Assembly: GCA_016793465.1 (NCBI GenBank)
Contig: JAEUJW010000095.1
Coordinates: forward strand, 62,001-126,000
Source of the DNA: Myxococcales bacterium
GTDB taxonomy: Bacteria > Myxococcota > Polyangia > Nannocystales > Nannocystaceae
Reading direction: 5' to 3'
Length of the DNA stretch: 64,000 nt
Within the stretch, counting starts at the first letter, position 1; every line of letters starts with the position of its first letter. The position numbers were made by a program, and so were the translations under genes. Of this stretch, positions 4,397 through 56,019 are shown piece after piece. Below the pieces are notes generated by a model, which worked only from the letters and a program-made list of their open reading frames with translations, had not been told where the DNA came from and did not search any database.

Positions 4397-5512
4397 GTGC
4401 TCACGACCCTGTTCGCCGCGGTGGCCATGCTGTTGACGCTGGCCCTGCCGACCTTCCCGGAGGGGCTGACGATCGCGATCGTCGGCTACCTCGGGCTGGT
4501 CGGGCTGGCGGGGTTCGGCGGGTTCTTGCGCAGCGCTGCGGCGCGCAAGGAGCTGGCGCTGTTGTCGCCGTGGGTGATCGGGCTGGGGCTCGGGCTGATG
4601 GTGGGGATCGTCCGCGGCAACCCGATGGGTCAGGCCCTCGAGGACGCGCTCTGTTACATCCTGTTCGTGCTCGGGCTGTGCGCCGGGCGCGGGGCGTCGC
4701 GGCCGACGTGGCTGCTGTGGTCGGTGCTCGCGGTGTGCGTGGCCGACGTGGCCATCTCGCTGGTGCGCATGCCGAGCTACGACCTGTCGCGCTACAGGTC
4801 GACGTACCTGCATTTTAAAGTGATCCTCGGGCACCCGCTGGTCGGCCTGTTCTGCGCGACGTTCCTGCATCACCTTAGCCGCGGTAGAGGCGTGAAGGCC
4901 GTTCTCAAAGCGATCACGGTGTTCCTGGTGGTCGGGGTGATCTTCACGGTCAGCCGCGGCATGGTGCTGGGGATGGCCATGGGGGCGCTGGCGTGGATGT
5001 ACGTGCGCAAGCCTGCGCGCGGGCTGATCTTCGGGGCCATCGCGGCGGTGCTGGTGGCGGTGTTCGCGGCCAGCCTGTTCGAGCTGGGCCAGCAGTACCT
5101 CCGGCTCGGCAACCAGGCCACGGTCGACGGGCGCGTGCGGGAGATCGCCGAGTGCCTGTCGTACTTCGCGCGCATGCCGGTGTTCGGCGCGGGGCTCGGG
5201 GCGGAGTTCGTGATCGACGGGTTCGTGGTCTCGTACGTGCACAACATGCTCGCGTACCACCTGTGGAAGTTCGGCCTGGTCGGCTCGGCGCTGTTCGCCC
5301 TGCCGTTCCTCGGGCTGACGCGTCAGGCCATGCGCATCGACCGGGACGCGCGCGCGCTCGTCTTCGCCGGGGCGGCGGCCTCGCTGGTGTACATGATCAC
5401 GGCGGCGTCTTATAAAAATTACATCGTCGTGCCGATGATCGGCATGGTCGTGGGCGCGGCCCTCCGCCTGCGCTTGCCGCAGGCCGCGAAACCTCCTAGC
5501 GTGCCGGCATGA
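4397..5512 (+). CDS. O-antigen ligase/polymerase-like polytopic membrane protein
   Basis: 371 residues from the GTG at 4397 (an alternative GTG lies at 4379). The start was chosen because a -10-like GATAGC lies 10 nt upstream and the first hydrophobic segment begins at once. Around ten hydrophobic segments are visible. The segment FTVSRGMVLGMAMG resembles the SRG motif of the O-antigen ligase/Wzy superfamily, and there is a large loop before the last helices. Such proteins polymerise or transfer lipid-linked polysaccharide on the periplasmic face of the inner membrane. The gene overlaps the following glycosyltransferase (ATGA), so it heads an operon with that gene and the flippase. Ligase and polymerase cannot be told apart from sequence alone. 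It contains two AT islets (4813, 5410). Confidence 0.65.
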   Translation: MLTTLFAAVAMLLTLALPTFPEGLTIAIVGYLGLVGLAGFGGFLRSAAARKELALLSPWVIGLGLGLMVGIVRGNPMGQALEDALCYILFVLGLCAGRGASRPTWLLWSVLAVCVADVAISLVRMPSYDLSRYRSTYLHFKVILGHPLVGLFCATFLHHLSRGRGVKAVLKAITVFLVVGVIFTVSRGMVLGMAMGALAWMYVRKPARGLIFGAIAAVLVAVFAASLFELGQQYLRLGNQATVDGRVREIAECLSYFARMPVFGAGLGAEFVIDGFVVSYVHNMLAYHLWKFGLVGSALFALPFLGLTRQAMRIDRDARALVFAGAAASLVYMITAASYKNYIVVPMIGMVVGAALRLRLPQAAKPPSVPA

Positions 5513-6381
5513 CCGACGCGCGCGCGCCGTTCGCGGTGGTGATGTTGACGCTGAACGAGCAGCTGAACCTGCCGAAGGCGCTGGAGTCGATCGGCGGGCG
5601 CGCGCCGGTGGTGATCGTCGACTCGGGCTCGACCGACGCGACGCCGCGGATCGCCGCGGAGCACGCGGCGGAGTTCGTGGTCCACGCGTTCGTCGACTAC
5701 GCGGCCCAGCGGAACTTCGCGCTCGACCTGGTGGCCGACCGGTTCCGCTGGGTGTTCTTCCTCGACGCCGACGAGGAGTTCGACGAGGCGCTGTGGCGCG
5801 AGGTCCAGCAGGTGGTCGCGGCCGACGACGTCGACGGGGCGTACGTCAAGCTCGACGGGCGCTTCCTCGGGCATCGCCTGGTCCACGGCGAGTTCTCGCG
5901 GGCCATGGTGCTGCGGCTGATGCGACCCGAGCGCGCCCGCTTCGGCCGCGGGATCAACGAGCGCGTCGACGATCGCGCGCTGCGGGTGGCGGTGTTGAAG
6001 ACCCGGCTCATCCACCGCGACGTCCGGCCGATCTCGCAGTGGTTCATCAAACACGTCGAGTACGCGCGCAAGGAGGCGAAGGCCTACATCGACGGAGTCG
6101 ACCGCGAGCGCGGGCTGCAGGGCTTCAACTTGCGGACCAAGGCGGCGCGGATGATCGGGATCCGCTGGGCGTACAACAAGCTGCCGCTGTTCGTGCGGCC
6201 GTTCGCCAACTCGCTGCGCGCGGTGGTCGTGCAGTCGGCCTGGCGAGACGGGCTGCCGGGGCTGGTGTTCGCGGGCATGCACACGCTGTGGTACCCGATG
6301 CTCATCGACCTGCTGATCTACGAGGAGAAGCTGCGTCGCGCCGGGGTGCTCGACCGCGAGGCGGCGCCGAAGCCGTGGTGA
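5509..6381 (+). CDS. Family 2 glycosyltransferase
   Basis: 290 residues; the ATG overlaps the preceding stop codon. The N-terminal fold is GT-A: VMLTLNEQLNLP, then VIVDSGSTDAT, then the metal-binding FLDADEE motif at about residue 85. The arrangement resembles the WaaE/KdtX-type lipopolysaccharide core glucosyltransferases (AQRNFAL before the DxD). It would add a sugar from a nucleotide donor on the cytoplasmic side. Position between an O-antigen ligase-like gene and a flippase supports a role in building a surface glycan. Donor and acceptor are unknown. Confidence 0.85.
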   Translation: MTDARAPFAVVMLTLNEQLNLPKALESIGGRAPVVIVDSGSTDATPRIAAEHAAEFVVHAFVDYAAQRNFALDLVADRFRWVFFLDADEEFDEALWREVQQVVAADDVDGAYVKLDGRFLGHRLVHGEFSRAMVLRLMRPERARFGRGINERVDDRALRVAVLKTRLIHRDVRPISQWFIKHVEYARKEAKAYIDGVDRERGLQGFNLRTKAARMIGIRWAYNKLPLFVRPFANSLRAVVVQSAWRDGLPGLVFAGMHTLWYPMLIDLLIYEEKLRRAGVLDREAAPKPW

Positions 6382-8674: not shown

Positions 8675-10564
8675 TCAGTCCATGTACATGCGCTGCCACT
8701 GCTCGAGGATCATCAGCGACCAGATCTTGATCCCGTGGTCGCGGACGCCGGTGCGGTGCTCGCCGAGCAGGCGGGCGATCTCTGCGGGCTTGAAGATGCC
8801 GCGGCGGGCGACCTGATCGGGGTGCAGCCAGTCGCCGGTGATGCGGTCCTCGGCCTGCTTCAGCCAGGTGCCGAAGGGGGCGTTGAAGCCGAGCTTCTTG
8901 CGGGTCAGGACCTCGTCGGGCACGTGGCCGCGCATGACTCTGCGGAGGATCCGCTTCGACGCGCGGGCGGTGACCTTCAGCGGCGCCGGTGCGCCGGCCA
9001 GCAGCTCGACCAGCACGTGGTCGCAGAACGGGACGCGCACCTCGAGGCCGTGGGCCATGCTCATGCGGTCGCTGCCGCGGAGCACGTTCTCGGGGAGGAA
9101 GCCGCGGAGGTCGGCGTAACCTGCTCTTTGGACCAGGTCGCCGCGGGCCGGCTCGGCGAAGGCGTCGGCGATGTAGTCGACGCGGCCGGCCTCGGCCACG
9201 GCGGCGCGGGTCGCGTCGGTGTACATGCCGTCGCGGACGCCCTGGCGGGCGTAGCCGACCCAGGCGGCGTAGCGCCGGGCGGGCGGCAGCTCGACGCCTT
9301 CGAGGAACTGGCGGGCCCAGCGGCGCAGGCTGCGGGCGGTGGTCGGCTCGCCGGCGCGGGCGAGCACGCGGCGCGCGAGGTTTATTAATAGACCTGGCGC
9401 GTGGGACAGGCGCTCGGACAGCACGAGGCCGCGGTAGCGCGGGTAGCCGCCGAACACTTCGTCGCCGCCGTCGCCGGCGAGGGCCACGGTGACGAACTGG
9501 CGGGTGAAGGCGGACAGCTTGTAGGACAGGAGCGCGGCCCAGCTGCCGAACGGTTCGTCGAAGCCGCGGACGAGCGGCTCGAGGTCGTCGAGCAGGCGGA
9601 TGTCGAGCTGGAGCTCGCGGTGGTTGGCGTGGAGGGCGGCGGCGACGCGGCGGGCGACGGGGCGCTCCTCGTAGGACGCGCCCTCGGGGCCGTAGCCGAC
9701 GCAGAAGGTGTCGACGCGGGGCTGGGCGCGAGGGTCGGTCATGCAGGCGACGATCGTCGAGGAGTCGAGGCCGCCGGACAGGAAGGCGCCGAGCGGGACC
9801 TCGGAGATCGTGTGGAGCTTGACGGCCTCGCGCAGCACGGGCTCGGTGGCCTCGGCCCAGGCGTCGAGCGAGTCGAGTCCGGGGTCGGCGGGGCGCGGCG
9901 CGGGGTCCCACCAGCGTTTAATAATTACCTGTCCCTTGTGCCAGGTGAGCGAGTGGCCGGGCGGGAGCTGGCGGATGCCGCGGAAGATCGACCGCGGCGG
10001 GGGGACGTAGTAGAGGTCGAGGTAAGCGTCGAGGCTGGTGAGGTCGAGGCCGCGGTCGACCTCGGGGCAGCGCAGCAGGGCCTTGGGCTCCGAGCCGAAC
10101 AGCAGGGTGCCGTCGGCGAGGGTGGCGTAGTACAGCGGCTTGATGCCGAGGCGGTCGCGGGCGATGAAGAGGGTCTTCGTGTCCGAGTCCCACAGGGCGA
10201 ACGCGAACATGCCGCGCAGGCGCTCGAGCAGCGCCGGGCCCCACCGCTGGTAGGCGACGAGCAGGACCTCGGTGTCGGACTCGGTATTAAAAATTGCGCC
10301 GGCGGCGAGCAGCTCGCGGCGGAGGGCGGCGTAGTTGTAGGTCTCGCCGTTGTAGGTGATGACGGCGCGGCCGTCGGGGCTGGCCATGGGCTGGGCGCCG
10401 GCCGCGAGGTCGATGATCGCCAGGCGGCGGTGACCGAGGCCGACGGGGCCGTGGGGGTCCGTGAAGAGCCCGTCGCCGTCGGGGCCGCGGTGACGCAGCG
10501 AGGCCGTCATGGCGGCGAGCAGGTCGGGGTCGTGACGCCCGACGATCCCGGCGATCCCGCACAT
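8675..10564 (-). CDS. asnB: Asparagine synthase, glutamine-hydrolysing
   Basis: 629 residues, the normal length. It begins MCGIAGIVGR, placing the nucleophile Cys2 of the class II glutaminase domain (residues 1-200). The synthetase domain has the PP-loop SGGLDSSTIVAC at about residue 264, then GDGGDEVFGGYPR. It makes asparagine from aspartate, glutamine and ATP; paralogues inside glycan loci often amidate a sugar acid or serve a secondary pathway. The start is 8 nt from a -10-like TACCCT (10573-10578 on the complement). The gene faces away from the methyltransferase pair. Three AT islets (9381, 9917, 10285) lie inside it. Confidence 0.9.
   Translation of the reverse strand: MCGIAGIVGRHDPDLLAAMTASLRHRGPDGDGLFTDPHGPVGLGHRRLAIIDLAAGAQPMASPDGRAVITYNGETYNYAALRRELLAAGAIFNTESDTEVLLVAYQRWGPALLERLRGMFAFALWDSDTKTLFIARDRLGIKPLYYATLADGTLLFGSEPKALLRCPEVDRGLDLTSLDAYLDLYYVPPPRSIFRGIRQLPPGHSLTWHKGQVIIKRWWDPAPRPADPGLDSLDAWAEATEPVLREAVKLHTISEVPLGAFLSGGLDSSTIVACMTDPRAQPRVDTFCVGYGPEGASYEERPVARRVAAALHANHRELQLDIRLLDDLEPLVRGFDEPFGSWAALLSYKLSAFTRQFVTVALAGDGGDEVFGGYPRYRGLVLSERLSHAPGLLINLARRVLARAGEPTTARSLRRWARQFLEGVELPPARRYAAWVGYARQGVRDGMYTDATRAAVAEAGRVDYIADAFAEPARGDLVQRAGYADLRGFLPENVLRGSDRMSMAHGLEVRVPFCDHVLVELLAGAPAPLKVTARASKRILRRVMRGHVPDEVLTRKKLGFNAPFGTWLKQAEDRITGDWLHPDQVARRGIFKPAEIARLLGEHRTGVRDHGIKIWSLMILEQWQRMYMD
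9917..9926. repeat. AT islet, exact TTTAATAATT (in asnB)
   Basis: One of four exact copies in the window. On the coding strand it is read as GTA ATT ATT AAA (Val-Ile-Ile-Lys) in a gene that otherwise uses G/C-ending codons. Confidence 0.8.
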
Positions 10565-24579: not shown

Positions 24580-24614
24580 CCGCGCCGGCCCCAAGCCGGC
24601 GCGGCCGGCTTTTA
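24580..24614 (+). terminator. Intrinsic terminator after the VWA gene
   Basis: A 10-bp GC stem (CCGCGCCGGC pairing with GCCGGCGCGG) with a CCCAA loop at 24580-24604 is followed by a second short GC block and TTTT at 24610-24613. Confidence 0.7.
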
Positions 24615-24643
24615 ATAATTGGTCATCGATTCAATTATTAAAA
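24610..24643. promoter_or_regulatory. AT-only inverted repeat upstream of the HelD-like gene
   Basis: Two perfect 12-bp arms, TTTTAATAATTG (24610-24621) and CAATTATTAAAA (24632-24643), are separated by 10 nt centred on ATCGAT. The left arm contains an exact TTTAATAATT. In a genome of about 70% GC this is a strong candidate operator or nucleoid-protein site. It lies 117 nt before the helicase start. Confidence 0.6.
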
Positions 24644-24759
24644 ATTATCTGACGCGGCGTACGTGGCTGCGTCGGGGTCTGGGGGACCCGCGGAGTTCGT
24701 CGCATTTTCGCGGCGAGCGTACTGGTCGGCTGCGATCGCTTTTGCTATGCACCCCGATC

Positions 24760-34287: not shown

Positions 34288-34340
34288 GGCGGGCGCGAGG
34301 ATACGCCATCCTGCGGGGCCTGGTACCCTCATGGCGACCG

Positions 34341-36962: not shown

Positions 36963-38672
36963 ATGACGTACGACAGACGCAAGCTGCGCTGGAACGGGTG
37001 GGGTCTGGCCCACGCGGGCTTCGAGTTCGGGCCGCGCGAGCCCGAGGTGTGGGCGTGGATCGCCCGGATGCTGGGGCGCCGGGAGTTCGCGCGCACGCCG
37101 GCGGTGCCGCTGCCGGACATCGAGCTGGCGGCGCCGCGGCTCGACGCCGGGGCCGTCGAGGCGCTGGCGGCGATCGTCGGCCACGACCACGTCAAGCAGG
37201 ACCGCTACGAGCGGGCCTTCCACGCCCGCGGCAAGAGCTACTACGACCTATTAAAAGTGCGGGCGGGCGACCTCGGAGAGAACGTGCCCGACGCGGTCGT
37301 GTACCCCGAGGACTTCGACGAGGTGCAGGCGCTGGTCGAGCTGGCGGCGCAGCGGAACATCGCCCTGGTGCCGTTCGGCGGCGGCTCGAGCGTGGTCGGC
37401 GGGGTCACGGCCCAGCGGCGCGCGGACCAGGCCGGGGTGGTGACGGTCGACATGACGCGCATGAACCGGCTGCTCGCGCTCGACTCGGTGTCGCACACGG
37501 CGACGCTCGAGGCGGGGGTGTACGGCCCGGACCTCGAGGCGCAGCTGCAGGCGCGGGGCTACACGCTGGGGCACTACCCGCAGTCGTTCGAGTTCTCGAC
37601 GCTCGGCGGGTGGATCGCCGCGCGCGGGGCGGGCCAGCAGTCGAACCGCTACGGCAAGGCGGAGAAGTGGCTGCTCGGCGCCAAACTGGCGACGCCGCGC
37701 GGGTCGTGGACGACCGAGCAGTTCCCGGCGTCGGCGGCCGGCCCGAATTTAAATCAGCTGGTGGTCGGCAGCGAGGGCACTCTGGGGATCGTCGCGGAGG
37801 CGACGGTGCGGGTGCACCCGGTGCCGGCGGTGAAGGACTACCGCGGCTACCTCTTCAAGAATTTCTCCGAAGGGGCGGCGGCGGTGCGGGAGATCGTCCA
37901 GCGGGGCATCCCGGTGGCCATGCTGCGGCTCTCGGATCCCGACGAGACGCGGTTCCTGCAGGGGTTCTCGGGCGCCCAGCACCCGCCGGGTCAGGCCACG
38001 AAGATCGGCGCGCGGCTGGTCGCGTGGCGCGGCTACGCGGAGGAGCGCTGCCTGCTGCTCGTCGGCCTCGAGGGCGAGCGCGAGGCGGTGTACGAGGCGC
38101 AGATCGCCACCCGCTGCGTGTGCGAGCGTCACGGCGGGCTGTCGCTCGGGCAGGGCGCCGGGCGCCGCTGGTACGCGCGGCGCTTCATGATGCCGTACCT
38201 GCGCGACCCGCTGCTCGACCGCGGCATCGCGGTCGAGACGCTCGAGACGTCGGTGCGCTGGGCCAACCTCGTCGGGCTGTATGAAGACATGACGACGACG
38301 CTGCGCGAGGCGCTCGCCCAGGAGAGGGCCGACGCGGAGGCGCAGACGATCGTCATGGCCCACATCTCGCACGTGTACGAGGACGGCGCGTCGCTGTACT
38401 TCACGATGGTGTTCCCGCAAAAGGGCGGGAAGACCCCGGCGGAGGCCGCCGAGGCCAACCGCGCGCAGTGGGACGTCGTCAAGCAGGCGGCCTGCAAGAC
38501 GCTCGCCGCGGGCGGCGGCACGATCTCCCATCACCACGGCGTCGGCACCGACCACGCGCCGTGGCTCGCGGGGGAGAAGGGGCCGATCGGGTTCGACGTC
38601 CTGGCTGGCCTGAAGGACAGGCTCGATCCCGCGGGCGTGCTGAACCCCGGGAAGCTCATGACCGGCGGCTAA
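36963..38672 (+). CDS. Alkylglycerone-phosphate synthase-like FAD enzyme
   Basis: 569 residues. It opens with RRKLRWNGWG, typical of alkylglycerone-phosphate synthases. The FAD/PCMH domain follows: PFGGGSSVVGG (about residue 140), FEFSTLGGWIAARGAGQQS and LVVGSEGTLGIVAEAT. The C-terminal HHHGVG motif (ISHHHGVGTDH) contains the catalytic His cluster. The enzyme swaps the acyl chain of acyl-DHAP for a fatty alcohol, giving the ether bond. Myxococcus xanthus makes ether lipids with such an enzyme. The glpD-kinase-synthase order makes a coherent pathway. Two AT islets (37249, 37744) lie inside it. Confidence 0.85.
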   Translation: MTYDRRKLRWNGWGLAHAGFEFGPREPEVWAWIARMLGRREFARTPAVPLPDIELAAPRLDAGAVEALAAIVGHDHVKQDRYERAFHARGKSYYDLLKVRAGDLGENVPDAVVYPEDFDEVQALVELAAQRNIALVPFGGGSSVVGGVTAQRRADQAGVVTVDMTRMNRLLALDSVSHTATLEAGVYGPDLEAQLQARGYTLGHYPQSFEFSTLGGWIAARGAGQQSNRYGKAEKWLLGAKLATPRGSWTTEQFPASAAGPNLNQLVVGSEGTLGIVAEATVRVHPVPAVKDYRGYLFKNFSEGAAAVREIVQRGIPVAMLRLSDPDETRFLQGFSGAQHPPGQATKIGARLVAWRGYAEERCLLLVGLEGEREAVYEAQIATRCVCERHGGLSLGQGAGRRWYARRFMMPYLRDPLLDRGIAVETLETSVRWANLVGLYEDMTTTLREALAQERADAEAQTIVMAHISHVYEDGASLYFTMVFPQKGGKTPAEAAEANRAQWDVVKQAACKTLAAGGGTISHHHGVGTDHAPWLAGEKGPIGFDVLAGLKDRLDPAGVLNPGKLMTGG

Positions 38673-40098: not shown

Positions 40099-40962
40099 AT
40101 GAACGCGGAGATGCAGGGCAAGGTCGTGCTGATCACGGGCGGCAACACGGGGATCGGCAAGCAGACGGCGATCGCGCTGGCCCGCAAGGGCGCGCAGGTG
40201 GTGATCACGTCGCGCGACCCGGACAAGGGCCAGGCGGCGCTGGCGGAGGTCCGCGAGGCGAGCGGGCGCGACGACGTGGTGTGCATGCGCCTCGACCTGG
40301 CGTCGCTCGCCGAGGTGCGCCGGTTCGCGGCGGAGTTCCTCGAGAGGCACCCGCGGCTCGACGTGCTCGTGCTCAACGCCGGGCTCATGCTCGGCGCCCG
40401 CTCGCAGACGGTGGACGGCTTCGAGTCGACGTTCGGGGTCAACCACCTCGGGCACTTCGCGCTGACCCGGCTGCTGCTCGACCGCCTGAAGCAGAGCGGG
40501 CCGGCGCGCATCGTCGTGCTGTCGTCGCAGGCCCACCGCGGCGCGCGCGGGCTCGACTTCGACGACCTGCAGCTGCAGCGCGGCTACAGCAGCTGGAAGG
40601 CGTACACGCGCTCGAAGCTGGCGAACCTGCTGTTCACGCTCGAGCTGGCGCAGCGGCTCGAGGGCACCGGTGTGACCGTCAACGCGGCGCACCCCGGGGT
40701 GGTCGCCACCGAGTTCGCGGGGGCCGAGGACATGGGGCGGTTCGCCGCGCTGGTGTGGTCGCTCGGCAAGTGGGCCATGCTGACGCCGGAGCAGGGCGCG
40801 CGGACGTCGGTTTACCTCGCCAGCTCGCCGGAGGTGGAGGGCGTGAGCGGCAAGTACTTTATTAAATCGAAGCCGGCCCGGACGACGCGCGCGGCGCAGG
40901 ACCGCGAGGCGGCGAGGCGGCTGTGGGACGTCAGCGAGGCGCTGACGGGCGAGCGCTACTGA
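40099..40962 (+). CDS. Short-chain dehydrogenase/reductase (retinol dehydrogenase-like)
   Basis: 287 residues. The classical SDR motifs are TGGNTGIG (NAD(P) binding, residue 13), NAG (about 92) and the catalytic Ser and YTRSK. The NHLGHFALT stretch is that of retinol-dehydrogenase/WW-oxidoreductase-like SDRs, which reduce lipid aldehydes or ketones with NADPH. The ATG at 40099 lies 9 nt after CTAGGA. A frame open from 39880 was rejected as a start. It meets the kinase gene tail to tail, with an AT islet at 40858. Confidence 0.85.
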   Translation: MNAEMQGKVVLITGGNTGIGKQTAIALARKGAQVVITSRDPDKGQAALAEVREASGRDDVVCMRLDLASLAEVRRFAAEFLERHPRLDVLVLNAGLMLGARSQTVDGFESTFGVNHLGHFALTRLLLDRLKQSGPARIVVLSSQAHRGARGLDFDDLQLQRGYSSWKAYTRSKLANLLFTLELAQRLEGTGVTVNAAHPGVVATEFAGAEDMGRFAALVWSLGKWAMLTPEQGARTSVYLASSPEVEGVSGKYFIKSKPARTTRAAQDREAARRLWDVSEALTGERY

Positions 40963-45555: not shown

Positions 45556-47103
45556 ATGCGCTGGTTCGTCCGCGGCGACATCGACGGGTTCTTCGGCCTC
45601 GCGGTCGACAACCTCGTGCAGCTCCTGTTGATCGACGCGCTGTGTCGGTTCGTGCTCGGGTTCCCGGAGGCGCTGCTCCACGGCGCGGTGCTGCCGGGGG
45701 CGGCGGTGTCGCTGCTGGTCGGCAATTTTTATTACGCGTGGCAGGCCCGCGAGGTCGGGCGGAGGCTGGGGCGCGACGACCTGTGCGCCCTGCCGTACGG
45801 CATCAACACGGTGTCGGTGTTCGCACATGTCTTTTTGGTCATGTTGCCGGCGAAGCTGGCGGCCGAGGCCGCGGGCGCGGCGGACCCGGCGCGGGTGGCC
45901 TGGCAGGCGGGGCTGGTGGCGTGCTTCGGGTCGGGGGCGATCGAGCTGCTCGGTGCGTTCGTCGCCGAGAGGGTGCGCCGGGCGACGCCGCGGGCGGCGC
46001 TGCTGTCGACGCTGGCCGGGGTGGCGCTGGGCTTCATCTCGCTGGGGTTCCTGTTTCGCAGCTTCGCGCGGCCGATCGTCGGGCTGACGACGCTGGCGGT
46101 GCTGCTGCTGGTCTACTTCGGGCGGGTCAAGTTCCGCGGGGGCCTGCCGGGCGGGCTGGTGGCGGTGCTGCTGGGCACGCTGCTGGCGTGGCTCACGGGC
46201 GTCGCGCCGGTCGGGGCGATGCCGTCGGCGGGGCAAGGGTTCAATTTGCCGGTGCCGGTGATCGGCGAGCTGGTGGCGGCGCTCAGCGGCGAGCACATGT
46301 GGACGTACCTGTCGGTGATCGTGCCGATGGGAATCTTTAATATCGTCGGGTCGCTGCAGAACATCGAGGCGGCGGAGGCGGCGGGGGACCCGTATCCGAC
46401 GCGGCCGTCGCTGATCGTCAACGGGCTCGGGTCGATCGCGGCGGCGACGTTCGGCTCGTGCTTCCCGACCACGATCTACATCGGCCACCCCGGGTGGAAG
46501 GCGATGGGGGCGCGGGCGGGCTACTCGATCTTAAATGGAGTGTTCGCCACGGCGGTGTGCCTGACGGGCACGCTGGCGTATATCGCGTGGGCGGTGCCGA
46601 TCGAGGCGGGCATGGCGATCGTGCTGTGGATCGGGGTGGTGATCTCGGCGCAGGCGTTTCAGGTGACGCCGCGAGAGCACGCGCCGGCGGTGGTGATCGG
46701 GATGCTGCCGGGGGTGGCCGCGTGGGGGGCGTTGATGGCGAAGGCGGGGCTGCGGGCGGGCGGGACGGCGTTCGATGAGAAGTTGGTGCCGGTGTTCCAG
46801 GGCGCGGACGTGTGGATCGACGGGGCCTTCGCGCTCGAGCAGGGGTTTATTTTTACGGCGATGTTGCTGTCGGCGGCGACGGTGGCGGTCATCGAGCGCA
46901 AGTTCATGGCGGCGGCCGGCTGGTGCGCCGTGGCGGCGCTGCTGTCGGCGCTGGGGCTGATGCACAGCTACGGGTGGACGCCGGCCGACACGGTGCTGGC
47001 GCTCACGCCGGCGTGGCCGTGGGCCGTCGGCTACGCGGCGATGGCGGGGGTGTTCGTGCTGGCGCCGCTGCTGACGACGCGTGACGCGGGGCCCGGGCAC
47101 TGA
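45556..47103 (+). CDS. NCS2-like nucleobase/xanthine-uracil permease family protein
   Basis: 515 residues, about 13-14 hydrophobic segments. The N-terminal block (RGDIDGFFGLAVDNLVQL) and LCALPYGINTVSVFAHVF resemble the AzgA/NCS2 permease fold; GSCFPTTIYIGHPGWKAMGAR is similar to the family's substrate-site helix. It probably carries a purine, pyrimidine or related anion with protons across the inner membrane. GATACA lies 8 nt before the ATG. It contains four AT islets (45723, 46335, 46530, 46847), the densest cluster in the window. Confidence 0.7.
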   Translation: MRWFVRGDIDGFFGLAVDNLVQLLLIDALCRFVLGFPEALLHGAVLPGAAVSLLVGNFYYAWQAREVGRRLGRDDLCALPYGINTVSVFAHVFLVMLPAKLAAEAAGAADPARVAWQAGLVACFGSGAIELLGAFVAERVRRATPRAALLSTLAGVALGFISLGFLFRSFARPIVGLTTLAVLLLVYFGRVKFRGGLPGGLVAVLLGTLLAWLTGVAPVGAMPSAGQGFNLPVPVIGELVAALSGEHMWTYLSVIVPMGIFNIVGSLQNIEAAEAAGDPYPTRPSLIVNGLGSIAAATFGSCFPTTIYIGHPGWKAMGARAGYSILNGVFATAVCLTGTLAYIAWAVPIEAGMAIVLWIGVVISAQAFQVTPREHAPAVVIGMLPGVAAWGALMAKAGLRAGGTAFDEKLVPVFQGADVWIDGAFALEQGFIFTAMLLSAATVAVIERKFMAAAGWCAVAALLSALGLMHSYGWTPADTVLALTPAWPWAVGYAAMAGVFVLAPLLTTRDAGPGH

Positions 47104-47153: not shown

Positions 47154-48116
47154 ATGCGCCGATCCCTCCGCGAAATCATGTCGGTCGTGCTGGCTGCGAG
47201 CCTGGTGGCGACGCCGGGCGAGGTGCGGGCGCAGGACGCGTCGTGGCCGGCCGCGGCGACGCAGGCCGACGCCGAGGGCAAGGCGGCGTACTCGAGCGGA
47301 GACTACGCCGGGGCGCTGGCGGCGTTTCAGCGGGCGTACGCGGCGATGCCGGACCCGGTGGCCCAGCGCAGGGGGCGCGAGGCGGTCCTGGGGTCGCTGC
47401 GCAGCACGTACACGCGGCTGTACGAGGCGTCGCACGAGCGCGCGCAGCTGTGCGCGTGGCGGGCGACGCTGGTGAGCCACACCGACGCGCTGCGGGCCCG
47501 GCTGGGGGCGTCGGCGACGCAGGAGACGATGGGGCTCGACGGGCTGCGCGCGCAGGTCGACGCCGACGTGGCGCGCGACTTCCCGAACGACCCGCGCTGC
47601 GTGCCGCCGTCGGCGACGCCGGTCGCGGGGGCGCCGACGTCTTCGCCGGCACCGTTGACGACGACGACGCCGGTGTATACGCGGCCGCCGGCGGTGCAGA
47701 CGGTGCCGCCGCTGCCGCCGAGGCAGGAGCCGGCGCCGGTGGGGTCGACGGATCGCGAGCAGAAGATGTGGCGGGCCGGAGGGATCTCGCTGGGCGTGGG
47801 GATCCTCGGGCTGCTCGGGATGGGGGCGGGGCTGGTGCTCGCGGACAACCGCGAGAAGGCGATCGTCGACCTCGAGAAGATGCTGGCCGACAAGAACCTG
47901 AAGCCGACGAACGACGACATCGAGCGCGCGGACCGGTTCAGGCGGCAGGCGACGATCGCCTCGGGCGCGGCGATCGGCCTGGGGATCGGCGGCGGGGTTT
48001 TATTAATTACGGGCATCGCGCTGATGGCCGCGGGGCGCAACGGGCGGCGCGCCAATCAAGCGAGCGTGGCGCCGACGGTCGGGGTGTGGGGGCTCGCGGT
48101 CCGCGGGCGGTTCTAG
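47154..48116 (+). CDS. Secreted/membrane protein of unknown function (paralogue of 42983-43876)
   Basis: 320 residues. A signal peptide (to VRAQ, residue 26) precedes a TPR-like repeat (KAAYSSGDYAGALAAFQRAY), a Thr/Pro linker, two membrane segments flanking a charged loop of about 45 residues (ADNREKAIVDLEKML...), and a C-terminus ending GVWGLAVRGRF. Order of parts and terminal motif match the 42983 gene. The last membrane helix carries an AT islet (LLIT encoded TTA TTA ATT ACG). Function is unknown. Confidence 0.7.
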   Translation: MRRSLREIMSVVLAASLVATPGEVRAQDASWPAAATQADAEGKAAYSSGDYAGALAAFQRAYAAMPDPVAQRRGREAVLGSLRSTYTRLYEASHERAQLCAWRATLVSHTDALRARLGASATQETMGLDGLRAQVDADVARDFPNDPRCVPPSATPVAGAPTSSPAPLTTTTPVYTRPPAVQTVPPLPPRQEPAPVGSTDREQKMWRAGGISLGVGILGLLGMGAGLVLADNREKAIVDLEKMLADKNLKPTNDDIERADRFRRQATIASGAAIGLGIGGGVLLITGIALMAAGRNGRRANQASVAPTVGVWGLAVRGRF

Positions 48117-48345: not shown

Positions 48346-49917
48346 GAAGCCGACGTCGGCGCGGCGGTCCTTGACGTTGCGCAGGCCGCGGGCGGTCACG
48401 CGGACCTCGGCGTCGGTGGTGGCGGTGTAGCTGCCGCCGCGGACCACGCGGTTGTCGGGGTCGGGCTCGCCCGAGCCCCAGCCGCCGTCGTCGTGGCTGC
48501 CGGACTCGTCGCGGTAGGTCAGCTCGGGGCTGGCGGTCCACTCCCACACGTTGCCGGCGAGGTCGAACACGCGGCCGCGGCCGGCGCCGCGGGCGTGGCT
48601 GGCGGTGCGCGCGGTGGCGGCGTCGCCGTCGCTGGTCGAGAACAGGCGCGGCGGCTCGGGGCCGGACTTCGGCGTGGGGGCGCACTCGCGGCCGCAGGCG
48701 TTGACGAGGTCGGGGCCGGGCTCGGCCTCGCCCCACGGGTAGCTGCGCTCCTGGTCGCCGCCGCGGGCGGCCCACTCCCACTCGTGTTCGCTGGGCAGGC
48801 GCTTGCCCTGGGCGCGGCAGTAGGTCTCGGCCTGGTGCCAGGCGACGCAGTTGACGGGGTGGCGACTGCGGGCGGCGCGGTCGCCGTTGCAGCGCTCGGA
48901 CTCGCGGGTGCGCTGCTCCTCGGTGAGCCTGGCCGACTGCACGGTGGAAGGAGCGGCGGAGCAGGGGCCGCCCTGGGCGCAGTCGGCGTACTCGCCGACG
49001 GTGACCTCGCGCTGGTCGATGCAGAAGTCGCGGACGTCGACGAGGCCGCCGGACGAGGCGCCTTCGGGGCGCGTGCCGCCGCGGTGGACGCTGGGACGGA
49101 AGCGGCCGCCCTCGACGAGCGTGGTGCCGCGGGGGCAGGGCCTCGCCTGCCGGCGCGCGGACACTTCTTCGGGCTCGCGGATGGGCTCGACCTCGAGGCG
49201 GAGCAGCGCGCCGCAGCCGTCGGGCGGGGTGGAGGAGTCGCCGCCGGAGCAGCGGCGCGGGTCGCCGTCGCTGCGCTCGAACCCTCGCTCGGCGGACGAG
49301 CCGGCGCCGGCCTGGGCCACGCCGAAGCCGCCGCCGGCGGAGATCTCCGCACCTGCCTCGGAGGACAGGCGGAACGCGCCCACGGTGACGGCGGAGATCA
49401 CGTGGGTCGCGCGCTCGCAGTCGCCTTGCAGCTCGCGGCGATCGACGCGGGCGCGGCCGGCGGCCTCGTAGTGGCCGACCACGGTCATGGCCAGGGACAG
49501 CGCGCCGTGGCGGGCGAGCTCCCCCTCGAGCTGGGCCGCGCCGAGGGGGATCTTCGCGTAGAGCTCGTCGGCGCTGCGGAACACCTGGTCGTCGCGCTTG
49601 GCCCCCACGCCGGTGTACTCGTAGCGGCCCGTCACCGTGCAGCGGCGCAGCAGCTCCATCTCGCAGCTCTCGTAGCGGACCGCGACCAGCCCCGCGTCGG
49701 CGCGCTTAATGATTAAGCCTTCGAGCAGGCCGCGATCCGAGGAGGGCCACTCGATGATGAGCGGGCGCGCGTGGCTCTTCATGACGCCGCAGCGGGCCTG
49801 GCCCTGGGTGTCGATCGACGGGGTCTGGGCGAGGCCCGAGGCGAGGTTGCGGCCGCGGCAGGCCGCGCCGACGGCGACGAGCGCGAGGACCAGGCAGAGC
49901 CGCGGAGCGGGTGACAC
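48325..49917 (-). CDS. FGE-sulfatase-fold (SUMF1) lipoprotein
   Basis: 530 residues from a GTG at 49917, 6 nt from GATACCCT on the same strand. A lipobox (LVAVGAAC, Cys about 20) indicates a lipoprotein. The N-terminal 250 residues have no recognised fold. The C-terminal part is a formylglycine-generating-enzyme/SUMF1 domain: FCIDQREVTVGEYADC, HPVNCVAWHQAETYCRAQGKRLPSEHEWEWAARGG, VWEWTASP, RVVRGGSY and the terminal VGFRCVL. Secreted members are usually structural or binding proteins rather than sulfatase-modifying enzymes. The 3' end is echoed downstream. Confidence 0.8.
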   Translation of the reverse strand: MSPAPRLCLVLALVAVGAACRGRNLASGLAQTPSIDTQGQARCGVMKSHARPLIIEWPSSDRGLLEGLIIKRADAGLVAVRYESCEMELLRRCTVTGRYEYTGVGAKRDDQVFRSADELYAKIPLGAAQLEGELARHGALSLAMTVVGHYEAAGRARVDRRELQGDCERATHVISAVTVGAFRLSSEAGAEISAGGGFGVAQAGAGSSAERGFERSDGDPRRCSGGDSSTPPDGCGALLRLEVEPIREPEEVSARRQARPCPRGTTLVEGGRFRPSVHRGGTRPEGASSGGLVDVRDFCIDQREVTVGEYADCAQGGPCSAAPSTVQSARLTEEQRTRESERCNGDRAARSRHPVNCVAWHQAETYCRAQGKRLPSEHEWEWAARGGDQERSYPWGEAEPGPDLVNACGRECAPTPKSGPEPPRLFSTSDGDAATARTASHARGAGRGRVFDLAGNVWEWTASPELTYRDESGSHDDGGWGSGEPDPDNRVVRGGSYTATTDAEVRVTARGLRNVKDRRADVGFRCVLDP

Positions 49918-49974
49918 GGGGGCAGGGTATCGCAGTTTCGGCCGGCGGGGTCGCGAGGCCGCACGGCGAGGCGC

Positions 49975-50076: not shown

Positions 50077-50599
50077 GCGTGTCGTCGCGGCGGACGGCGT
50101 CGATGGCACGACGGAGCTCGCGGATGCCGTCGCCGGGGCGGGCCTGCCAGCGGACGTTGCCGGCGGCGTCGACGACCAGGGTCGCGGGGATCTGCCGCAC
50201 GCGGAAGCGGCTGGCGAGGATCTGGCCGGCGTCGTGGATCACAGGGAAGGGCAGGCCGAGCTGACGGACCATCGACTGGGTGTCGGCGGCGTACTCGTCC
50301 TCGCCGAAGCCGACGATCACCAGGTCGGGGTCGGAGCTCGCGAGCCTGGCGACGTCGGGCAGCTGCTGCCAGCAGGGCTTGCAGTACTGGGCGAAGAACT
50401 CGACGACGAGGACCTTGCCGCGCAGCGATTCGCTCGTCAGCGGCGCGCCGGTGAGGGTGCGCCGGTTGAACGCGGGCACGGGGCGGCCCACCGCGGGGCT
50501 CGCGGCCGAGGGCGGCAACCCCGGCGAGGCGCACGCGAATAGGCCGCACAGCGCCAGCGCGAGGCCGGGGCCCGGCGCGCGGGCGCACCGGTGGGACAT
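50063..50599 (-). CDS. TlpA/redoxin-like thiol-disulfide lipoprotein
   Basis: 178 residues from the ATG at 50599. A lipoprotein signal (ALALCGLFACASPG) anchors it to a membrane. The thioredoxin fold has the active site FFAQYCKPCWQQL (CxxC), a later cis-Pro in RQIPATLVVD and a TlpA-like central insert. It should reduce or exchange disulfides in the periplasm, for example during cytochrome maturation or envelope folding. Its 3' end is repeated downstream. Confidence 0.85.
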   Translation of the reverse strand: MSHRCARAPGPGLALALCGLFACASPGLPPSAASPAVGRPVPAFNRRTLTGAPLTSESLRGKVLVVEFFAQYCKPCWQQLPDVARLASSDPDLVIVGFGEDEYAADTQSMVRQLGLPFPVIHDAGQILASRFRVRQIPATLVVDAAGNVRWQARPGDGIRELRRAIDAVRRDDTQAPR

Positions 50600-50661
50600 G
50601 CGGCGGGACGTCAAGGACTGGATGGTTAGCACACGTCGGGTCGCCTGTGCGACGCCGCGGC

Positions 50662-50691
50662 TTGCGAGCCCTGCGCGGGCTCCGTGATACT
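50662..50691 (+). promoter_or_regulatory. Promoter for the HTTM operon
   Basis: TTGCGA (50662-50667), an 18-nt spacer and GATACT (50686-50691). The predicted GTG start is only 12 nt after the -10, implying a nearly leaderless transcript. Confidence 0.55.
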
Positions 50692-50703
50692 GTCCGCCGC
50701 CCC

Positions 50704-53292
50704 GTGCTGCTGCTCGCCCTCGCCGAGACCCCCAACTACACCCGGGTGCCGCCGGAGCTGACGGCGCACGTCGGCTGGTTGTCGCTGGCCGCGCTGGTGT
50801 GCCTGCTGCTGTGGCTGGCCGCGCGGATGGAGTGGATCCGCCGCAGCTTCCTCGCGCTCGAGGACCCGCGCATGTTCGCGGTCATGCGCATCGGCATGGC
50901 GCTGATGACGATCCAGTGCTTCTGGAACCTGAAGCCGTACTGGCGGATGTTGTGGAGCGACGAGGGTCTATTTAATGCCGACGACGCCCGCTCGCGCATG
51001 GGCGGCTCGGCGCTGTCGGGCTGGACGCCGGAGGACGGCTTCCTCGACAACTGGGCGGTCTTCAAATACTTCTGGGGCAAGCACTCGTGGTTCTTCATCG
51101 ACTCGGCGCCCGACGCGGTCGAGACGTTCATGTACGTGTTCTTCGGGGTGCTGCTGCTGTACGCGTTCGGGGTGCTGAGCCGCGTCACCGGGGTGATCGC
51201 GTGGCTGATGGTCAGCAGCGTGTACAACCACAACGCGCTGTACCTCGAGGGCACCGACACGGTGTACCGCACGTTCTGGTTCATCCTGCTGTTCTGCAGG
51301 ACCGGGGCGGCGTGGAGCGTCGACAACGTGGTGCGCTGCTGGTGGCTGCGCCGGCGCGGCGAGCTGCAGGAGCCGGGCGCGCCGGCCCGGCCGGGGCTGC
51401 GGCCGGTCTACAGGTCGGTCCCCAGCTGGCCGCGCTACCTGATGATGGGCCAGCTCGTGGCCATCTACACCAGCACGGGCATGGTCAAGACCGGCAACGT
51501 GTGGGCGGCCGGCGACGCGCTGTACTACTCGCTGAACCTCGACCACTTCTACCGCTTCGAGGGCTGGACGCAGGTGGTCTCGGCGGCGCTCGGGACCACG
51601 CTGTTCCGCGTGATGACGTGGGTGACCCTGTGGTGGGAGTGCCTGTTTAGCGTCGCCGCGCTCGGGATGATTGTGAAATTTCACCTCGAGCAGCGCGACC
51701 GCCCGTGGTACCTCGCGCAGGGGCGCTGGCGGACGTGGCTCGCGCGCGGGGCCCTGCTCGGGCTCTACGGGCTGCTGTACCGCGTCGTCACGCTCGCGTA
51801 CCCGTACTGCATCGAGCTGCCGAAGGACGCCAGCGCCGAGCTCACCGAGAAGCTGGTGAGCGAGGGGCTGCGCAACGTCGACGTCATGATGCTCGCGGTG
51901 ATCCCGCTGCTGGTGACGCTGTGGTTCGTGCTCGGGCGCTGGCCGCTGAAGATGGGGCTGAGGCTGCGGGGGAGGCGGCGCGAGGCTGTCGTGGATCAGC
52001 ACTGGCTGCGCAAGTGGCTGCTCGGGCGCAGGGTGTGGCTCGGCCTCGGGCTGACGTTCCACGGGTTTCTGATCCTGTTCATGAACATCGGCATGTTCCC
52101 CTTCATCATGCTGATGACCTACGCCGCGTGGCTGCGCGGCGAGGAGTTCGCGGCGGCGCTGCGCTGGCTGGTCGGGCTGGTGTGGCGCTCGCCGCTCGGC
52201 AAGCGGCTGCCGGCGGCCTGGCTGGCGCGGGCCGACGCGTGGACGGCCCCGGCCGAGGCGCCCGAGGCGGCGCCGCGGCGCGGGCGGCCGCTGCCCGACT
52301 GGCTGGTGCTGCTGCTCGGGCTGATCGGCGTCGGGCTCGGGGCGGCGTGGATCGCCGGCAAGACGTGGGGCGTGAGGTACGAGCTCGGCGACTACGTGTA
52401 CGCGTGGCTCGGGCTGTGCGTGCTCGTCGGGCTCGGGTTTCGCCTGTGGAGGACCACGCCGGAGCGGCACCTCGCGCGCATGGGCGGGGGGCCGGCGCTG
52501 GCGTACGGTCCGGCGGGGCGGGCGATCGCGCTGGGGTTCATGACCAGCCACGCGCTGGTGGTCGGGCTCGGGCTCGGGCCCAACTACACCATCTTTAATA
52601 ATTGGCGCGGGCCGGTGCGCGGGCTGTTCGGCAGCTGGGCGACGGTCACGGGGACCTCGCAGAGCTGGAAGATGTTCGCGCCCAACCCGCCGCGCGCCAA
52701 CGTGTTCATGAAGACCGTGGTCGTGCTGCCGAACGGCGAGCGCTGGAACATCGGCAACAACGCCTACGACTGGCGGCCGTGGCCGTGGATCTGGAACGAC
52801 CGCATCCGCAAGATGCACCGGCGCATGGTCAGCAAGGGGAAGTGGTACCTGCGCTACTGGGCCCACTTCTACTGCCGCGAGTGGTACCTCGAGACCGGCC
52901 AGCGCGCGGCCGCGGTCGAGGTGCACAAGCTCGTCACGAAGATCCCCTCGCCCGACCAGGTGGCAAAGAAGGGCTGGTACGAGCCGACCAAGCTCAAGCT
53001 GACCGACGAGATCGTCGAGACCCACGACTGCCCGCGCGGCGGCGACCTGCCGCCGTTCATGAAGCTGCGCTACGGCCACGAGCTGACCCACGAGGACGAG
53101 GCGGCGCTCGCCGACGCGGCCGAACGCGAGCGGCGCAGCTCCGAGACCAAGCGGAGGAGCTGGGCCAACCGCCGCGACTGGGGCGGCAGCGGCCCGCAGC
53201 CGACGGCGCCGACGACCCTGCCCGGTCAGGCCGCGCGCGCCGGCGCCGACGAGGAAGAACCGCCCGCGAAGGACGGCGGGGACGGCGAATAG
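50704..53292 (+). CDS. HTTM-domain membrane protein fused to a MFAPNP-motif domain
   Basis: 862 residues. Residues about 40-320 are the HTTM (vitamin-K-dependent carboxylase-like) domain: MRIGMALMTIQCFWNL, FGVLLLYAFGVLSRVTG, YLMMGQLVAIYTSTGMVKTG and LYYSLNLDHFYR. More membrane segments follow. The C-terminus (from about 640) is soluble, with SQSWKMFAPNPPRANVF and a repeated aromatic/basic pattern. That region resembles the separate protein of the next gene, and the HTTM part resembles the third gene. HTTM proteins are of unknown activity in bacteria; gamma-carboxylase-type chemistry is only a fold-based guess. Confidence 0.75.
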   Translation: MLLLALAETPNYTRVPPELTAHVGWLSLAALVCLLLWLAARMEWIRRSFLALEDPRMFAVMRIGMALMTIQCFWNLKPYWRMLWSDEGLFNADDARSRMGGSALSGWTPEDGFLDNWAVFKYFWGKHSWFFIDSAPDAVETFMYVFFGVLLLYAFGVLSRVTGVIAWLMVSSVYNHNALYLEGTDTVYRTFWFILLFCRTGAAWSVDNVVRCWWLRRRGELQEPGAPARPGLRPVYRSVPSWPRYLMMGQLVAIYTSTGMVKTGNVWAAGDALYYSLNLDHFYRFEGWTQVVSAALGTTLFRVMTWVTLWWECLFSVAALGMIVKFHLEQRDRPWYLAQGRWRTWLARGALLGLYGLLYRVVTLAYPYCIELPKDASAELTEKLVSEGLRNVDVMMLAVIPLLVTLWFVLGRWPLKMGLRLRGRRREAVVDQHWLRKWLLGRRVWLGLGLTFHGFLILFMNIGMFPFIMLMTYAAWLRGEEFAAALRWLVGLVWRSPLGKRLPAAWLARADAWTAPAEAPEAAPRRGRPLPDWLVLLLGLIGVGLGAAWIAGKTWGVRYELGDYVYAWLGLCVLVGLGFRLWRTTPERHLARMGGGPALAYGPAGRAIALGFMTSHALVVGLGLGPNYTIFNNWRGPVRGLFGSWATVTGTSQSWKMFAPNPPRANVFMKTVVVLPNGERWNIGNNAYDWRPWPWIWNDRIRKMHRRMVSKGKWYLRYWAHFYCREWYLETGQRAAAVEVHKLVTKIPSPDQVAKKGWYEPTKLKLTDEIVETHDCPRGGDLPPFMKLRYGHELTHEDEAALADAAERERRSSETKRRSWANRRDWGGSGPQPTAPTTLPGQAARAGADEEEPPAKDGGDGE
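52594..52603. repeat. AT islet, exact TTTAATAATT (in HTTM gene)
   Basis: Read in frame as ATC TTT AAT AAT TGG (Ile-Phe-Asn-Asn-Trp), a reading frame different from the copies at 9917 and 28919. Confidence 0.8.
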
Positions 53293-54155: not shown

Positions 54156-54156
54156 C

Positions 54157-56019
54157 ATGCTCGGCGCGCTCTCCGGCTCCCTGCTCGCGCTGGCCGACAA
54201 GCCGCCGCCGGTCGACGTCTCGGCGCACCTCGACGTCGCGACGGTCGTGCTGTGGGCGGTGCTCGGGCTCGCGCTGCTGTTCTTCGCGGTGCGCCCCGAG
54301 CTGTGGCGGCGGCTGTGGCTCGACCGCGTCGACCCGCGCCCGGCGGGCCTGCTGCGCATCGTGTTCGGCGTGGTCGTGCTGTGGACGATGGTCGACCTGA
54401 TCCCGCTCGGTCGGTTCCTGTTCACCGATGAGGGGCTGTGGCTGCCGAAGATGGCCCGCCGCAACTACAGCAGCGACTTTCGCACGATCTGGGACCCCGA
54501 GCACGGGTTCGAGGGCTGGTTCGACGTCCTGCGGGCGTTCTGGCACCGCTTCTCGCTGTTCCACATCCGCGCCGACCCGCCGTTCGTGTGGACGATCTAC
54601 GGCGTGACGATCGTGTCGCTGGTCATGATGATCCTCGGGATCAAGACCCGCATCACGACCTTCCTCAGCTGGTTCCTCGTCAACACGATCTACATCTACA
54701 GCCCGATCTTCTACAGCGGCGGCGACACGGTCGTGCGCGTGTACCTGTTCCTCGGGCTGTTCCTGCAGTGGGGTCAGGCGTACTCGCTCGACGCGTGGTG
54801 GCGCCGCAGGCGGGCCGTGCTGCGCGGGGCCGCGGAGATACCGCCGCTGAGGCCGATCCCGGCGTGGCCGCTGCGGCTGATGATGCTGCAGCTGGCGATC
54901 ATCTACTGCGCGACCGGGGCGCTGAAGAGCGGGCACACCTGGCTCGACGGCACGGCCCTGTTCTTCGCGCTGAACCTCGACCACTTCTATCGCCACCCGG
55001 CGCAGATCCAGCTCGTCACGTTCCTGCAGATGATCTGGGTCCTGCCGATCGCGACGTGGATCACGCGCATCTGGGAGACGGCGTTCCCGGTGGCGCTGGT
55101 CGGCGCGGCGGTCAACGCGTTCGAGCGCGATAAGCGGGCCGGGGTGTGGCCGCAGGCGCCGCTGTGGCGCCGCTCGCTGTCATACGCGTGCCTGGTCGCG
55201 GTGTTCGGCGGGCTGGCGTACATCGCGGCGCTGGCCGCCTGGTACTTCTACGACCCGGCGCTCGGGCCGTGGAAAATTAATAAATACGGGGCGGCGATCC
55301 TGTTCGGGGCGCTCGGCGTGGCGATCCCCGTGGTCGCGCTCGCGGCGTACCTGGCGCTGCGGCGCTGGCGTCCGCGGGTCCACCGGTTCGTGCTGACGTG
55401 GCTGCTCGGCAAGCGGCTGTGGCTGGGGATCGGGCTCGTCATGCACGTGGGCATCGACCTGCTGATGAACGTCGGCACGTTCGTGCAGGTGATGATCGCG
55501 GTGTACCTCGCGTGGCTGTCGGGGGCGGAGCTCGAGGCGTTCTGGCGCTACATCGTGACGGCGCCGCAGGCCCCGGGCGAGGGCACGCGGCCGCTCCGCA
55601 AGCCGCGCTGGCGGGCCGTGCTGCTGGCGCCGATCGACCGCCTGCGCTACCGCGCCGCGCCGGCGCCGTACGTGGTGCACCACCACCCGGGCGAGCACGC
55701 GGTGCGTCGCGCGGCGCTGCTGCGCATGTGGGACCTCAGCGGGCGCCTGGCGTTCACCGCCGACGAAGCGGTGAGGCCGGGCGAGCTGTGCGTGGTGGTT
55801 CCGCCGCGACCGCGGCTCGGCGAGCGCCTGGCCGCCCGGCTGAGCCCCGGCTGGCTCGTGCCGCGCCTGCCGGCGCCCGCGGGGGCGAGGCTCGTCGGGG
55901 CGAGGGCCGGGCGCGCGCTGGTCCGACTGCTCCCGGGCTTCTGGTGGATGTACCCGTGGTGCCTCGTGCCCGGTCTGTCGCGTCTGTGCGGCCTGTGGGT
56001 CGCCCGCACGTTCAAATGA
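54157..56019 (+). CDS. HTTM-domain membrane protein
   Basis: 620 residues, starting one base after the previous stop. The HTTM domain covers roughly residues 45-330: GLLRIVFGVVVLWTMVDL, FHIRADPPFVWTIYGV, LRLMMLQLAIIYCATGALKSG and FALNLDHFYRHPAQ, closely parallel to the first gene. A further four or five membrane helices and a basic tail follow, but the MFAPNP domain is absent. Together with the 53310 product it would rebuild the domain set of the 50704 fusion. An AT islet lies at 55274. Confidence 0.75.
   Translation: MLGALSGSLLALADKPPPVDVSAHLDVATVVLWAVLGLALLFFAVRPELWRRLWLDRVDPRPAGLLRIVFGVVVLWTMVDLIPLGRFLFTDEGLWLPKMARRNYSSDFRTIWDPEHGFEGWFDVLRAFWHRFSLFHIRADPPFVWTIYGVTIVSLVMMILGIKTRITTFLSWFLVNTIYIYSPIFYSGGDTVVRVYLFLGLFLQWGQAYSLDAWWRRRRAVLRGAAEIPPLRPIPAWPLRLMMLQLAIIYCATGALKSGHTWLDGTALFFALNLDHFYRHPAQIQLVTFLQMIWVLPIATWITRIWETAFPVALVGAAVNAFERDKRAGVWPQAPLWRRSLSYACLVAVFGGLAYIAALAAWYFYDPALGPWKINKYGAAILFGALGVAIPVVALAAYLALRRWRPRVHRFVLTWLLGKRLWLGIGLVMHVGIDLLMNVGTFVQVMIAVYLAWLSGAELEAFWRYIVTAPQAPGEGTRPLRKPRWRAVLLAPIDRLRYRAAPAPYVVHHHPGEHAVRRAALLRMWDLSGRLAFTADEAVRPGELCVVVPPRPRLGERLAARLSPGWLVPRLPAPAGARLVGARAGRALVRLLPGFWWMYPWCLVPGLSRLCGLWVARTFK

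Follow-up and report, generated by a model that had tools for sequence, protein, structure and literature searches.

Why should genes that write almost every codon with a terminal G or C be broken, again and again, by short blocks of DNA holding neither base? The question is raised by a 64-kb stretch of contig JAEUJW010000095.1 (the whole stretch analysed, hereafter the window), in which metabolic, cell-surface and other genes and two tRNAs are encoded at 71.4% GC, and the open reading frames (ORFs) used below mostly have a G/C fraction at third codon positions (GC3) of 0.92–0.98. Judged by one of its proteins, the source organism is a Nannocystis-like myxobacterium: we place it near Nannocystis because Iso_dh shares 89% identity with the protein of a Nannocystis metagenome-assembled genome (L001) and 82–84% with the counterparts in six Nannocystis strains (L002, L003, L004, L019, L020 and L023). 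Runs of eight or more A/T bases, hereafter islets, number 25 in the window and are 8–16 bases long; 23 of them lie before 57.5 kb, whereas the other two (61006 and 61442) fall within a stretch of about 52% GC. Islet density is about one per 2.4 kb. The sequence-only reading, which first described these islets, was accurate about them, with all 16 of the starts it listed falling on real runs within two bases. It also reported four copies of TTTAATAATT, at 9917, 24611, 28919 and 52594, which are present; a fifth occurs as the reverse complement in the run at 24633, and the copy at 24611 is upstream of that portion of the following ORF which can be aligned to relatives.

To obtain a null expectation, synonymous codons were shuffled 1,000 times within each of 32 high-GC3 ORFs (16,584 codons). 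Runs of at least 8, 9 and 10 bases occur 22, 17 and 15 times in these ORFs, against shuffled means of 0.90, 0.11 and 0.06; TATTAA/TTAATA occurs 15 times against 0.28, and TTAA 23 times against 6.66. None of the 1,000 shuffles matched the observed counts, and chance or local composition is thereby ruled out. Each ORF was taken to begin at the first start after a stop, so that N-termini may be too long; because assigned starts may be too early, the first 50 codons per ORF were removed as a control, and the three run classes still numbered 20, 16 and 14 against 1.02, 0.14 and 0.10. The excess over a codon-preserving null that marks highly iterated dispersed motifs is thus found here, within the window. 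Run lengths of 8–12 are in excess and form a separate class, whereas lengths of 3–5 are below the null. That the codons of an islet switch together, another of its claims, is also borne out: WWN codons occur in runs of exactly three at 45 places, and all three end in G/C at 33 of these and in A/T at 6, the endings being mixed at the other 6. An assembly artefact is unlikely, since the changes are in frame and introduce no stops, and a 98% identical homologue from a separate 4.1-kb contig (P0121) retains the residues KINKY encoded at the islet at 55273.

It is also evident that many islets share a core, which the sequence-only reading had not noticed. TTAWTAA, which is its own reverse complement, occurs 11 times in the window against 0.07 in dinucleotide shuffles. 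Because the reversed control AATWATT is likewise raised (6 against 0.04, every copy lying within an islet), the core surpasses its control only about two-fold. An expectation-maximization alignment of 25 sites (the 23 runs plus the near-islets at 32108 and 49706) gave AATTATTAAA for a width of 10 and roughly wTTAWTAAw for a width of 18, with no strongly conserved flanking column at width 14 or 18. Relative to the six Nannocystis loci, counted on both strands, TTAA is raised (52 against 14.6) and AAAA/TTTT is not (46 against 51.6), and 18 of the 23 runs hold TTAA. The preference is seen again among the 175 stretches of at least three F/I/L/N/K/Y residues. Islets sit at 20 of these (one of them, in ORF 24619, is probably non-coding but was left in), and 8 of the 20 could spell TTAWTAA if A/T-coded, as compared with about 10 of the other 155 (P = 1.5×10−4, Fisher test). 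The candidate explanation that an A/T run appears wherever residues allow is ruled out by these counts.

A self-complementary core recalls HIP1 (GCGATCGC) of cyanobacteria, which is palindromic, dense, highly iterated and group-specific, and whose function is debated, an origin in repair bias having been proposed (PMC4390886, excerpt). By analogy, site-specific methylation or a bias of mismatch repair could drive the islets with no selected function at each site. HIP1, however, is an exact 8-mer with GATC and CGATCG methyltransferase sites, and a methyltransferase should in principle require an exact word, whereas the islets are degenerate A/T blocks of 8–12 bp and 5 of the 23 runs lack TTAA. 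We consider such an epiphenomenon a serious rival, though rather unlikely.

The layout of the islets along the sequence shows neither a clear orientation bias nor a period, both of which the sequence-only reading had proposed to check. Polar motifs of the Chi/KOPS type have a strand bias relative to replication; the 25 aligned sites divide 10 to 15 between orientations about a core that is self-complementary. Spacing of 22 sites (24633 left out) has a coefficient of variation of 0.79 against a null of 0.96 (5–95% range 0.70–1.29; Kolmogorov–Smirnov P = 0.79); periodic spacing was not seen, and placement is compatible with random. With respect to genes, a stop codon is at most 150 nt away from 7 of 21 genic islets, where 1.94 would be expected (P = 0.002, near-islets left out), in a test made after the pattern had been noticed, and an islet lies within 200 bp of 4 of the 8 convergent junctions in the ORF list. 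Between genes, an inverted pair at 24610–24643 could form a DNA stem of 12–13 pairs (z = −2.2).

Such a layout invites comparison with the uptake sequences of Neisseria (DUS) and Haemophilus (USS). If the islets were elements of this kind, they would be favoured in transformation and would spread by biased uptake and recombination, a molecular drive, rather than by local benefit. DUS and USS are dense, dispersed, clade-limited and both intragenic and intergenic, as are the islets; the inverted pair recalls the paired intergenic DUS that form stem-loops (PMC3630211, excerpt), and the bias towards gene ends recalls that of uptake sequences in Pasteurellaceae (PMC2346458, excerpt). But DUS and USS are near-exact words of mixed composition that include G and C, whereas the islets are A/T only, non-polar and degenerate, 11 sites sharing the 7-mer core and the rest varying, and a single inverted pair was seen. 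An uptake origin is in our view a serious rival, though a doubtful one.

The proximity of some islets to gene boundaries might instead mark internal promoters or terminators. Three of them (5410, 20018 and 32666) are just upstream of a start and four (4165, 5410, 45724 and 46336) come directly after a predicted stem-loop. However, the 57.5 kb contain three sigma-70-like matches, with −35 and −10 hexamers properly spaced, none of which overlaps an islet; those ahead of both tRNAs read CATACT. Moreover, 14 of the 21 genic islets lie more than 150 nt from a stop, and terminator-like matches number 18 against 12.6 expected. These observations make promoters or terminators highly improbable as the explanation.

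Comparison with relatives shows what the islets replace. In codon alignments the islets are in frame on homologous residues at which relatives carry G/C, the exceptions being 9381, where L029 has a gap of two codons, and 20018, where the site is variable; an aligned relative was not found for 11220, 18229, 24633, 40858, 47998, 49706, 50969 and 52594, and only a weak one for 55273. In 15 ORFs whose match reaches 50% identity or more, the best-scoring relative has G/C at 61 of 130 aligned islet bases, a figure that tells only how large the change is, since the islets were picked for being A/T. Outside the islets, changes from G/C to A/T (1159) and from A/T to G/C (1366) are near balance. Residues agree with the relative at 22 of 34 islet codons, a proportion close to that outside the islets (5241 of 7403). 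Amino-acid changes go with some islets, for example the IFN at 10285. In these alignments, then, homologous positions have been rewritten at the level of DNA.

This pattern also bears on a signal in translation or mRNA, for instance ribosomes slowed by clusters of rare codons, or A/U-rich sites for RNase. Few codons here end in A/T, and neighbouring ones of that kind cluster outside the islets too, as such a signal might have it. But all three codon positions in an islet are A/T, although rare codons with G/C at positions 1 and 2 would do equally well, and intergenic copies exist. The islets also occur in either sense orientation and use both frames that avoid stops, and residue changes accompany them. 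We regard a translational role as very unlikely.

The sequence-only reading would take a lack of synonymous-site conservation in related genomes as a refutation, and in the relatives compared such conservation is indeed lacking: aligned orthologues are G/C-ending at islet positions. The relatives without islets are, however, at roughly 65–89% protein identity, and we read the failure as a matter of depth, with the islets probably belonging to a narrower clade, because some islet residues persist in the proteins of closer, uncultured relatives. KINK at 55273 is kept in P0121, P0122, P0124, P0125 and P0134 among 39 homologues shown, and KINKY in P0121 alone. Together with the residues at 9917, 10285, 50969 and 52594 (Table 1), these suggest that some islets predate the species and that others are private to it. 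Counts of FINKY triplets in homologues, used as a detector of islets in sister species, were suggestive for P0005 but noisy.

A wider search points the same way. In 29 Nannocystaceae genomes, which are the same genomes at the order level as at the family level, TTTAATAATT has 0–6 copies per genome. TTAWTAA occurs 4–92 times per genome in ten relatives, or 0.5–8.2 per Mb, as compared with about 170 per Mb in the window (11 in 64 kb), and is thus at least 20-fold rarer in them; it outnumbers the reversed control 1.6- to 1.9-fold in three genomes (G002, G003 and G007) and is outnumbered by it in three others (G008, G010 and G011). The synonymous-shuffle test on seven relatives' loci found 0–2 runs of at least 8 bases per locus, with a weak excess in L003, L004 and L007. 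Across 377 Myxococcota genomes, SSNNNTTTAATAATTNNNSS gave 19 matches in 13 genomes with at most 3 per genome, this being a stricter pattern that fits only 2 of the window's 4 forward TTTAATAATT copies. Viral contigs searched for DNA of closer relatives yielded none, and a limited literature search found no description of such islets. The motif is clade-specific, iterated, non-polar and aperiodic.

Clustered mutation without selection, in which G/C is turned to A/T tract by tract through damage or gene conversion and the outcome is filtered by purifying selection on proteins, would also produce such changes over short tracts, with only those residues surviving that the protein tolerates. The milder clustering of A/T-ending codons outside the islets (64 pairs against 14.9) is consistent with it. 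It leaves the preference for TTAWTAA unexplained, however, and very little of it is seen in the relatives' loci and genomes searched. We think this account unlikely.

Our own preference, held tentatively, is that one and the same degenerate, non-polar, A/T-only element of about 8–12 bp recurs as the islets, often with the self-complementary core TTAWTAA; selection would keep this element in a narrow clade near Nannocystis as the putative docking site of an A/T-reading chromosomal protein. Of the earlier proposal of selection on DNA, one part stands: the shuffles, the length class, the alignments and the core preference all indicate a process that acts on DNA and not on single codons, whereas the recurrent protein-binding site is the favoured but still putative part, and any link to replication, segregation or pausing is conjectural. 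The reader would be abundant and probably dimeric, and a candidate similar to GapR, MvaT/H-NS or CdbA may organize or relax the chromosome, with docking perhaps favouring the 3′ ends of genes. Since the site is degenerate, A/T-only and non-polar, its reader would more likely sense A/T shape or the minor groove than be an enzyme that needs an exact word. Dense motifs that reshape coding DNA are few (DUS/USS, HIP1, Chi and KOPS), most of them pointing to a process at the level of DNA. At 71% GC, an A/T-only motif is an unusually clean signal, because nearly every copy stands out from codon usage.

Each candidate resembles the inferred reader in part. Caulobacter, the host of GapR, is likewise a high-GC bacterium. 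GapR prefers A/T DNA and is associated with the 3′ ends of highly expressed genes (PMC8510090, excerpt), both of which recall the islets. MvaT, H-NS and Lsr2 read the A/T minor groove, and MvaT and H-NS favour TpA steps (PMC4466236, excerpt), two of which lie in TTAWTAA; their targets, however, are A/T-rich and often foreign DNA, whereas the islets sit in core genes. CdbA, a nucleoid protein of the myxobacterium Myxococcus xanthus, has 569 peaks, most of them inside genes as the islets are, and a moderate sequence specificity (PMC7156744, excerpt).

Several observations weigh against a selected docking site. Aligned relatives conserve no islets, and all the within-genome statistics come from one 64-kb window. 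A/T-ending codons cluster outside the islets in triples as well as in pairs (9 against 0.58), many of the cases being confined to a handful of stretches; one is the N-terminal part (high coordinates) of the M28 peptidase ORF 19942–22221, and codon usage is thus locally uneven. The element itself is loose: the five runs without TTAA are those at 4165, 5410, 11220, 45724 and 46846, and 12 of the 23 contain at least four consecutive A or four consecutive T. MvaT disfavours A-tracts (PMC4466236, excerpt), yet about half of the islets hold them, so that the TpA steps do not single out MvaT. The CdbA motif is a direct repeat with parts four bp apart (PMC7156744, excerpt), unlike the single near-palindromic A/T blocks seen here. 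The bias towards 3′ ends, and likewise the islets near convergent junctions, may reflect relaxed constraint on C-termini. No nucleoid protein is known to reshape coding sequence so densely, although uptake sequences and HIP1 do. Finally, the GapR, Lsr2 and H-NS domains were each found in 0 of the 29 Nannocystaceae, with only 150 candidates scored in the larger genomes for H-NS and MvaT itself not searched; given these results, the putative reader probably belongs to another family or is a recent gain.

Table 1. Islets and near-islets of the window, with the genes that hold them and the corresponding positions in relatives' loci (L) and homologues (P)
Element	Positions	Location	Remarks and relatives
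AAAAATTT	4165..4172	near N-terminus of ORF 1076-4201(-)	no TTAA; relatives not aligned
ATTTTAAA	4812..4819	Wzy_C ORF 4238-5512	relatives not aligned
TTATAAAAATTA	5410..5421	ORF 4238-5512, stop 91 nt downstream	L029 TAC AAG AGC
TTTATTAATA	9381..9390	AsnB ORF 8675-10564(-)	TTAWTAA core; two-codon gap in L029
TTTAATAATTA	9917..9927	AsnB ORF 8675-10564(-)	VIIK, otherwise only in P0005 among 44 homologues shown
TATTAAAAATT	10285..10295	AsnB	IFN; FN in 0/44 homologues shown, mostly FR or LR
AATTTATAAA	11220..11229	methyltransferase ORF 10603-11478	no aligned relative found
AATTATTTAAA	18229..18239	TPR ORF 14746-18300, 61 nt to stop; convergent junction	
TTATTAAAA	20018..20026	M28 peptidase ORF 19942-22221(-), 76 nt to stop	site variable in relatives
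TTTTAATAATT	24610..24620	intergenic	inverted pair, left arm
AATTATTAAAAATTAT	24633..24648	probably intergenic; upstream of helicase-homologue alignment	inverted pair, right arm
TTTAATAATT	28919..28928	Iso_dh ORF 28801-29967(-)	GAA TTA TTA AAG vs L001 GAC CTG CTC AAG
TTTAATA (short islet, 7 bases, below the threshold of 8)	32108..32114	DUF5916 ORF 30026-32698	six Nannocystis loci TTC AAC
TTTATTAAATT	32666..32676	DUF5916 ORF 30026-32698, 22 nt to stop	TTT ATT AAA TTG vs TTC CTC AAG CTG (six Nannocystis loci)
TATTAAAA	37249..37256	FAD-oxidase ORF 36963-38672	CTC CTG GCC in most aligned relatives
AATTTAAAT	37746..37754	FAD-oxidase ORF 36963-38672	L049 AAC TTG AAC, residues same
TTTATTAAAT	40858..40867	short-chain dehydrogenase ORF 39880-40962, 95 nt to stop; convergent junction	no aligned relative found
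AATTTTTATTA	45724..45734	ORF 45556-47103	AAC CTC/CTG TAC TAC in 6/8 relatives
TTTAATAT	46336..46343	ORF 45556-47103	L041 TTC AAC ATC, residues same
TTTATTTTTA	46846..46855	ORF 45556-47103	TTT ATT TTT vs TTC ATC TTC in 8/8 aligned relatives
TTTTATTAATTA	47998..48009	ORF 47154-48116, 107 nt to stop; convergent junction	no aligned relative found
TTAATGATTAA (near-islet)	49706..49716	ORF 48325-50109(-)	palindrome around central G
TATTTAAT	50969..50976	ORF 50647-53292	LFN; N in 0/34 homologues shown
TTTAATAATT	52594..52603	ORF 50647-53292	FNN also in P0241 and P0247 of 34 shown
AAAATTAATAAATA	55273..55286	ORF 54157-56019 (weak HTTM match)	KINK in 5/39 homologues shown

The end of the window differs from the rest. 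After a tRNA-Ser gene (56074–56160) comes an ORF bearing a Resolvase N-terminal domain (56458–57195), GC falls to about 52% at 60–62 kb, and ORFs at 62206–63759 match IS21-type IstB and the Mu-transposase C-terminal domain; the segment 56074–64000 is likely a tRNA-associated genomic island. The TTAWTAA core is absent from this putative island after 56.2 kb, where only about 1.5 would be expected.

Other words and genes of the window were also recorded. In the promoter-like matches ahead of the two tRNAs (12509–12538 and 56036–56064) the second hexamer is CATACT, and GATAC is enriched in the window (16 against 3.0 expected from Nannocystis loci); the organism's −10 element may resemble NATACT. 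GAGGTAC, counted on either strand in positions 1–57500, occurs 12 times at scattered sites against 0.2 expected from the six Nannocystis loci. Between the convergent ORFs 27266–28627 and 28801–29967 lies a 36-nt inverted repeat (28695–28776) that is 86% complementary with a 10-nt loop. An ORF of the deoxyhypusine synthase family is found at 33310–34332 in this bacterium, and the ORF adjoining it combines FAD-oxidoreductase and glycerophosphate-oxidase C-terminal domains.

Should selection for a docking site be the right explanation of the islets, which we hold to be plausible but short of probable, uncultured relatives of Nannocystis would carry thousands of copies of an undescribed near-palindrome, wTTAWTAAw, read by a putative protein and overriding both codon usage (92–98% GC3) and, at times, amino acids that homologues keep; it would amount to a nucleoid or chromosome-processing code laid across core genes. 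If true, this would show how a genome-wide DNA code arises in a narrow clade, and what it costs in protein sequence.

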